DNA of 40,389 nt, from positions 1 to 40,389 of the forward strand of contig JARYLJ010000018.1 in NCBI GenBank assembly GCA_029907705.1. The letters run 5' to 3'. This document shows, piece by piece, positions 34,086-35,502 of the stretch. The translations under genes and the position numbers were made by a program. Source of the DNA: Methanomicrobiales archaeon (GTDB lineage: Archaea; Halobacteriota; Methanomicrobia; Methanomicrobiales; JACTUA01). Under the pieces are notes generated by a model that was not told the DNA's origin, ran no database searches, and worked only from the letters and a program-made list of their open reading frames with translations. Numbering within the stretch: position 1 is the stretch's first letter; each line of letters opens with the position of its first letter.

Positions 34086-34193
34086 TTATTTCCGGGACTC
34101 TTCCTCCTCCTCTGATTGCTGGGATTTATTTGCTTTTGGTATAATTTTTGGTCCGCAGCAACCGCACGATCGGTCTCCAAGAAGTTTGGCCAT
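34086..34193 (-). CDS. Small CGCCG-motif protein, 35 aa
   Basis: The predicted product starts MAKLLGDRSCGCCGPKIIPK, followed by a polar linker and an acidic tail (SEEEEESRK). Three Cys in CGCC form a likely metal or thiol site. GGGAAAAAGGA lies 3 nt upstream of the ATG at 34193, and a TATA-like ATATATTTAAAA sits about 25 nt before a start site near 34213. The frame is open to 34328, but an earlier start would bury the promoter palindrome in coding sequence. I recall similar Cys-rich short proteins next to permeases of the DUF318/ArsP type but cannot verify it. It is divergent from such a permease here. Possible metal(loid) chaperone (inference). Confidence 0.6.
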   Translation of the reverse strand: MAKLLGDRSCGCCGPKIIPKANKSQQSEEEEESRK

Positions 34194-34229
34194 GAATCCT
34201 TTTTCCCTTACATCGTGGTATCGCTCCAT

Positions 34230-34251
34230 TATTTTAAATATATTTGAAATA
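34230..34251. promoter_or_regulatory. Palindrome A, overlapping the TATA box of the CGCCG gene
   Basis: Ten of eleven base pairs of this 22-nt palindrome match; the only mismatch is T against G. Read on the minus strand its left half is TATTTCAAATA. It covers the TATA-like sequence expected for the small minus-strand gene, so a bound protein would block transcription. Confidence 0.6.
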
Positions 34252-34330
34252 TTTTTATCTGAGTCCAGATAAAGATGCTGCTTTTGACCGTGAAAGAACG
34301 CCCGGGTATAAATATCTCGAAATTCCATAT

Positions 34331-34352
34331 TGTTTCAATATAACTTGAAATA
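34331..34352. promoter_or_regulatory. Palindrome B, second copy of the putative operator
   Basis: TTTCAA (34333-34338) and TTGAAA (34345-34350) are perfect inverted halves with a 6-nt spacer; an outer T/A pair extends it. Read plus-strand, it matches palindrome A (minus-strand reading) at 15 of 22 positions. It is directly followed by a TATA-like AAATATATT (34348-34356) that could serve the permease. Confidence 0.6.
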
Positions 34353-34435
34353 TATTCCGGGGAGATATGGTGTTCTGTCAAACGTGCATGGGATGGGGTG
34401 AGGATCCACCATTTCTTTTTGTTTCTCTGTCAAAA

Positions 34436-34457
34436 TGAGAGAGCCTGGACTCTCTTA
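34436..34457 (+). other. Hairpin in the permease leader
   Basis: AGAGAG pairs perfectly with CTCTCT around the loop CCTGGA, and outer T-G and G-T positions extend it to 8 pairs as RNA. It lies about 110 nt before the permease ATG. It may be a leader structure or simply the 3' end of another transcript. Confidence 0.35.
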
Positions 34458-34566
34458 TCTGTAAAATTTCACGAAGATTGAAAAAGATCATCCGAGGTGT
34501 CTCCATGCAACATTTACAACAGGTGCGTATGGGCGCAGGAATCCTCTTACCCAAAAGAGAGGAACC

Positions 34567-34980
34567 ATGACGACGCTCATCGATCTTTCCACTGCATTGC
34601 ATTACTTTGCTATCATAACCATAGAACTCGTCCTGCTCTTCATCGGGATCAGTTTTCTCGTGGGGCTGATCAGGGAGTATATACCGGAAGAACGGATACG
34701 ATCTGCCCTCAGGGATCGGAATTATGGTCTGGGGAATGTACTCGGCGCTGGTTTTGGTGCGCTCACCCCGTTCTGCTCCTGCTCCACCATACCGATACTC
34801 GTGGGCCTGCTGGACATAGGTGTTCCCTTCGGCATCGCCTATTCCTTCCTTATCGCATCGCCGCTTCTCAATCCGGTCATATTCTCTCTCCTGCTGGCCC
34901 TCTTCGGCATCGTACCAACGCTCGTCAACACAGTCATCGGATTCGCGACCGCAGTGCTTTCAGGTATCCTGCTGCAATGA
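34567..34980 (+). pseudogene. DUF318/ArsP-type permease, N-terminal part, ended by in-frame TGA
   Basis: The 137-residue frame has GAGAGG 5 nt before its ATG and encodes the first half of a multi-pass membrane permease. Hydrophobic helices are interrupted by the family's loop FCSCSTIPILVGLLDIGVPF and end IASPLLNPVIF. The family (DUF318, including arsenic-resistance ArsP proteins) is usually about 300 residues. Here a TGA at 34978-34980 stops it after SGILLQ, yet the frame continues without another stop to 35502 with the second half of the protein. The joined gene has 312 codons. It is therefore probably a pseudogene, or the TGA is a sequencing error. Confidence 0.8.
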
Positions 34981-35007
34981 GCAGGCTATGCGAAGTACGT
35001 CAAAGCG

Positions 35008-35502
35008 GTGACGCTGGAACAGCACGGGAACTGCGATTGTGCCGGGGTGCCATCCCCCTCCCTCCGTGTCGAGGCACGGATGAGCCGATCCCTCAGGTTC
35101 GCTCTCTCGCTGTTCCGCCAGGTCGTGCCATATCTGATTCTGGGTGCCGGAATCGGAGCGTTCATCTATGGATTTGTGCCAGAAAGTCTTATCGTGACCC
35201 TGGCCGGCCCCCAGAATCCAATGGCCATACCGGTCGCCGCAATCATCGGCATCCCGATGTATATACGTGCGGAGACCATCATCCCGATCAGTGCCGTGCT
35301 CCTGTTGAAGGGGATGGGGATCGTTGCGGTAATGGCGCTGATCATCGGGGGGGGGGCGGGCGCCAGCATGCCTGAAGTCACGCTTCTGGCCTCCATCTTC
35401 GAGAAACGGCTGGTGGCCGCCTTCGTGATCACGATACTGGGAGTGGCAATCTTCGCAGGCGCAATCTTTCAGATGCTCTCGACCGGAGGGCTGCTGGGAT
35501 GA
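35008..35502 (+). pseudogene. DUF318/ArsP-type permease, C-terminal part
   Basis: This frame is in phase with the upstream half. Counting from the TGA, the sequence AGYAKYVKAVTLEQHGNCDC follows directly, then a linker and membrane helices (VVPYLILGAGIGAFIYGFVP, IPVAAIIGIPMYIRAETIIP, MALIIGGGAGASMPEVTLLA). It ends with a hydrophobic helix and TGA. The GTG at 35008 has no Shine-Dalgarno and lies inside the domain, so it is not a credible independent start. The second half shows no further damage, which suggests a recent change. Confidence 0.8.

Follow-up and report, generated by a model that had tools for sequence, protein, structure and literature searches.

Repressors of the E. coli ArsR family sense As(III) through three cysteines arranged as C-x-C-x2-C, and archaeal transcription usually starts about 25-30 bp downstream of the TATA box. 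For bacterial ArsR operators, the accessible portions of reports on Synechocystis and Paracoccus (PMC9137774, PMC4585019) give a core consensus of ATCAA-N6-TTGAT. In Synechocystis, according to the same portions, arsR is distant from the ars operon, and its product has two binding sites. In methanogens, the available text on the redox regulator MsvR describes one TATA box centred 27 nt upstream of the transcription start (PMC3729527).

The DNA analyzed here, hereafter the window, is a 40,389-nt stretch of contig JARYLJ010000018.1 from a Methanomicrobiales archaeon. A first-pass annotation described two related 22-nt palindromes lying between a small-protein gene and a permease gene and proposed that they are ArsR-type operators. 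Both palindromes were located, A (TATTTTAAATATATTTGAAATA) at 34230-34251 and B (TGTTTCAATATAACTTGAAATA) at 34331-34352, 101 nt apart and, by a hand count, identical at 15 of 22 positions as it had reported. Comparison of sequences across the order indicates that A and B are very probably the operators of an autoregulated LCVC ArsR/SmtB repressor encoded on another contig, C19, and that they would lie over the starts of divergent promoters. The features are as follows.

34086-34229, minus strand: 47-residue Cys-rich small protein (CGCCGPKIIPK), belonging to a family that is conserved in the order and encoded next to the operator
34232-34249, no strand assigned: operator A, TTTTAAATATATTTGAAA (minus strand, TTTCAAATATATTTAAAA), predicted ArsR site at the start of the small-protein gene
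34268-34273, minus strand: TATA-like element TTTATC, 24 bp upstream of A, putative promoter
34307-34314, plus strand: TATA-like element TATAAATA, 26 bp upstream of B, putative promoter
34333-34350, no strand assigned: operator B, TTTCAATATAACTTGAAA, predicted ArsR site where transcription of the permease gene is expected to begin
34567-35502, plus strand: ArsP_1 (PF03773) permease with an in-frame TGA at 34978-34980

Predicted operators and promoter geometry

When the window was searched with TTTCAA-N6-TTGAAA allowing one mismatch, A (one mismatch) and B (none) were the only matches, against 0.02 expected, and none of 100 shuffles contained two matches. With two mismatches allowed they were still the only ones (0.25 expected). 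The genome (1,788,592 bases in 70 contigs) was then scanned with the looser pattern TTTCAA-N6-TTRAAA, which occurs at only three places in 1.79 Mb: A, B and a perfect 18-bp palindrome on contig C33 (C33:42996-43013). All three precede ArsP-type permease genes. The full C33 18-mer with up to three mismatches recovered only the C33 site and A, and the reversed control gave one match per strand. The inverted core TCAA-N6-TTGA is complete in B and in the C33 site, and one half only is present in A.

The first-pass annotation also had each palindrome touching a TATA-like element, one in each direction. The letters inside the palindromes are not the probable promoters; a TATA-like element does, however, lie 24 bp upstream of A and another 26 bp upstream of B. 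Given these positions and the usual archaeal distance from TATA box to start, both operators would cover the expected transcription starts, from which we infer that blocking of the polymerase is the likeliest mode of repression. The geometry recurs in relatives, where TTTATA-like boxes are found mostly 25-27 bp upstream of the site matching A. With small-protein promoters aligned on the operator, 25 of 29 distinct sequences have a TATA-like hexamer whose first base lies 23-27 bp upstream of it; across the order the site usually falls about 26 bp downstream of the TATA box, where transcription is expected to start.

The distance of 101 bp between A and B differs from the 50-54 bp usual for site pairs in relatives. 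A second site at the usual distance was sought for both A and B and none was recognisable, and a search for a third operator between them found no 18-mer with three or fewer mismatches. Midway between A and B lies a quasi-palindrome, TTTGACCGTGAAA (34283-34295), whose centre is 48.5 and 52.5 bp away from theirs; it does not match the operator pattern, yet it sits near the site spacing of relatives. Inspection by eye also revealed a 21-residue frame (34505-34570) following GAGGTG and overlapping the permease start as ATGA, which could be a coupled leader peptide.

A candidate repressor and its site across the order

The annotation had found no regulator gene beside the palindromes and expected one elsewhere, possibly of the ArsR family. 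A profile search gave ten HTH_5 matches in the genome, the best being the C19 protein at 54.3 bits (next, 40.9), and a related site does lie upstream of its gene. This site, TTTCATAATACTTTGAAT, begins 38 bp before the start codon, has two mismatches, and resembles TTTCAT-N6-TTGAAA, often the form of the copy nearest arsR, as in many relatives. The C19 protein scores above the ArsR family cut-offs of both PF01022 (52.8 bits, cut-off 22) and NF033788 (79 bits, cut-off 55), and the solved structures matching its profile include CzrA, SmtB, NmtR and similar proteins. All 37 aligned homologues contain the CVC motif, preceded by leucine in 36, and it is likewise invariant in all nine rows of a separate alignment (A1). 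The third cysteine of C-x-C-x2-C is absent from the motif in the aligned homologues, which reads LCVCIMK or LCVCVIK; many of them, not all, carry an N-terminal cysteine, so that a further ligand may be provided elsewhere in the protein.

The upstream regions of ArsR genes were examined after the addition of 80 loci from named genomes (mostly Methanomicrobiales, with L175 and L184 from Thermoplasmata/Thermoplasmatota). Of 120 genes, those with less than 200 bp upstream or a protein similarity ratio above 0.9 were dropped, leaving 95 nonredundant genes with a CVC motif. The exact sequence TTTCAA-N6-TTGAAA is found within 500 bp upstream of 48 of the 95, and a copy with at most one mismatch upstream of 68; 27 have no such site. 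Spacers of 0-5 and 7-14 bp gave no exact matches, and with one mismatch allowed they appeared in at most seven of the 95; half-sites reversed or everted likewise gave no exact matches upstream of ArsR genes. Exact sites numbered 56 in the 48 kb upstream of arsR and 13 in the remaining 697 kb of flank, a figure that includes other ars promoters. Site pairs 50-54 bp apart accounted for 34 of 48. In a search of 41 genomes, a homologue of the C19 ArsR was present in 35 and the exact site in 28, the present genome being included in both counts. The same site thus precedes CVC ArsR genes throughout the order as well as ArsP/ACR3 operons, and the assignment of the palindromes to ArsR-type operators stands; on these sequence comparisons the ArsR-regulon reading is well supported.

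It was considered whether A and B are chance palindromes that serve no regulator. They are AT-rich and overlap AT-rich promoter DNA, and four stray exact copies examined in relatives (L053, L102, L103 and L104) lie inside coding frames. However, the pattern is confined to the N6 spacing, with 48 of 95 upstream regions against none for 14 other spacers, and its three places in the genome, all before ArsP genes, together with the low number expected in the window, render chance highly improbable. The four stray sites within coding frames also disfavour a general regulon for metals or thiols in which many targets are controlled.

A different regulator, either another HTH_5 protein or MsvR, was likewise weighed. 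The genome does hold ten HTH_5 matches, and MsvR acts at divergent promoters in methanogens according to the available text of PMC3729527, but the C19 protein is the best of those matches and its homologues have the site upstream. The MsvR motif given in that text, TTCGTA-N4-TACGAA, is not TTTCAA-N6-TTGAAA, and the C19 protein reaches only 24.6 bits against an MsvR cut-off of 220. MsvR itself is rejected on motif and profile score, and another regulator is on the whole improbable.

On a Thermoplasmata contig (L175, 3924-3994), the gene of a C19 ArsR homologue is preceded by two exact sites at a spacing of 53 bp. The homologue and its paired sites suggest transfer beyond the order.

Putative target genes and a scattered cluster

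The permease neighbouring the palindromes was identified as an ArsP_1 gene; as a correction to the annotation, its frame is interrupted by the TGA. It matches PF03773 over its full length (171.2 bits, profile positions 3-293, one TGA inside), and the position of the TGA is a sense codon in relatives, whose orthologues are uninterrupted there. The genome contains only two ArsP_1 genes, this one and one on C33, and both bear the operator. Both permeases pass the Pfam cut-off for PF03773 and in this they belong to the ArsP_1 family; they differ from its narrower equivalogs in falling below their cut-offs. The two fragments of the window permease, scanned apart, gave 42.1 and 64.1 bits for the SO_0444 Cu/Zn efflux equivalog (cut-off 300) and 41.3 and 33.2 bits for SaoE (cut-off 325).

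The C33 site lies upstream of the other ArsP-type permease gene, which is part of an operon for arsenite efflux by ACR3. The genes that follow are, in order, the ArsP_1 permease, an 89-residue protein, a thioredoxin of the TIGR00412 MTH895/ArsE family, a DGC-domain protein, ACR3 and a universal stress protein. The ACR3 gene appears frameshifted because its two consecutive profile-match pieces are in different frames. In relatives, the sites are commonly found between a divergent arsR and an operon with permeases of both the window and C33 types, the 89-residue protein and thioredoxin. That operon opens with a small Cys-rich protein, and ACR3 and the universal stress protein are present in several; in this comparison the ACR3b and FTR rows reflect conservation at the DNA level only, and the DGC rows carry no information. 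The three loci of the present genome, on three contigs, appear to be fragments of a single module, every one with its own operator. This module is termed ancestral because the clustered form occurs more widely; what is a single divergent cluster in relatives would here have been scattered with its operators kept.

The TGA in the permease and the apparent frameshift in ACR3 may point to partial decay of the regulon or to assembly errors. These two lesions and the scattering of the cluster could also mean that the operators are ancestral relics of a decaying locus with a permease pseudogene. However, the operators, their TATA-like elements and the frame of the small protein are all intact, the permease still scores as a full-length match, and the TGA could be a consensus or assembly error, so that this explanation is rather unlikely.

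The small protein belongs to a family of about 43-51 residues with an invariant GCC and a KIVPK-like tail. No family match was found for the window member in Pfam or NCBIfam, or for one relative in Pfam. Within the order, 59 of 150 genomes encode a member; a sample of the phylum gave 25 of 294, of which 24 belong to the same order and one, a weak match (E = 6.8e-4), lies outside it. The small-protein alignment (A2) was seeded from loci fetched via ArsR or the operator, and hits from whole-genome searches therefore provide a fairer test. Of 45 such loci (one being the window itself), 38 have an operator with at most one mismatch in the 150 bp upstream, as do 35 of 42 distinct upstream sequences, and control spacers of 3, 4, 5, 7, 8 and 9 bp gave 0, 0, 1, 0, 0 and 0. 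The seven loci lacking the operator are L231, L233, L234, L235, L237, L239 and L240. As read from the sequence, the gene in L237, which is outside the order, directly follows the end of a frame resembling an ArsP-type permease, an adjacency that would link small protein and permease in a way that does not depend on the operator. In genus g18 (L231, L233, L234 and L235), also as read from the sequence, the small-protein gene follows another frame at a short distance, in what may be an arsR operon.

The annotation suggested a metal(loid) or thiol stress regulon. The metal(loid) part is supported; thiol stress is disfavoured since the recurring partners are ArsP permeases, the TIGR00412 (MTH895/ArsE) thioredoxin and ACR3. 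The ArsR repressor of C19 would then operate as follows. The TATA boxes are between A and B, and promoters facing outward would drive the 47-residue protein through A and the permease through B. With no metalloid present, the repressor would sit as a dimer over the starts of transcription and keep RNA polymerase out. Binding of As(III), Sb(III) or a methylated arsenical at the Cys-x-Cys motif would dislodge the repressor and so induce the small protein and its neighbouring permease, the C33 ArsP-thioredoxin-DGC-ACR3-USP operon and arsR itself. The gene content and the Cys-x-Cys motif favour arsenic as the presumed inducer; antimony or another thiophilic metal is possible. More tentatively, the paired operators may bracket the BRE/TATA about five helical turns apart, and the undescribed Cys-rich mini-protein encoded by the first gene (consensus CGCCCG-x-VKIVPK) may be a metalloid chaperone, an independently evolved archaeal counterpart of ArsD, whose conjectured role would be to hand arsenicals to the ArsP permease or to modulate the repressor.

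Comparison with known systems

No published operator of this type in archaea or Methanomicrobiales was found in the open-licence literature, and the accessible part of a report on mercury methylation (PMC10349881) contains no description of it. For an archaeal ArsR regulon spanning a methanogen order, the analysis provides a concrete operator together with its promoter geometry. Furthermore, it links the scattered arsenic genes of one genome to a single putative regulator and ties a small Cys-rich family with no Pfam or NCBIfam match to ArsP-type permeases.

MsvR, as far as described in the available text (PMC3729527), is similarly an archaeal autorepressor at divergent promoters, with boxes over the start or the BRE/TATA, but it differs in its motif and in being a redox-sensing V4R protein with oxidative-stress targets. 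The present operators are classed with known ArsR operators because they share the TCAA-N6-TTGA core and the C19 protein passes the ArsR cut-offs. Compared with the bacterial operators, as given in the accessible portions of those reports, the inner core and the 6-bp spacer are the same, and Synechocystis arsR is likewise remote from its targets. The archaeal sites differ in the outer TT/AA that extend the core to the 18-mer TTTCAA-N6-TTGAAA, in their position on the start of a TATA promoter, and in pairs about 52 bp apart. Judged by sequence, the ArsR-operator core is thus a known one, here placed in an archaeal promoter and accompanied by an undescribed small protein.
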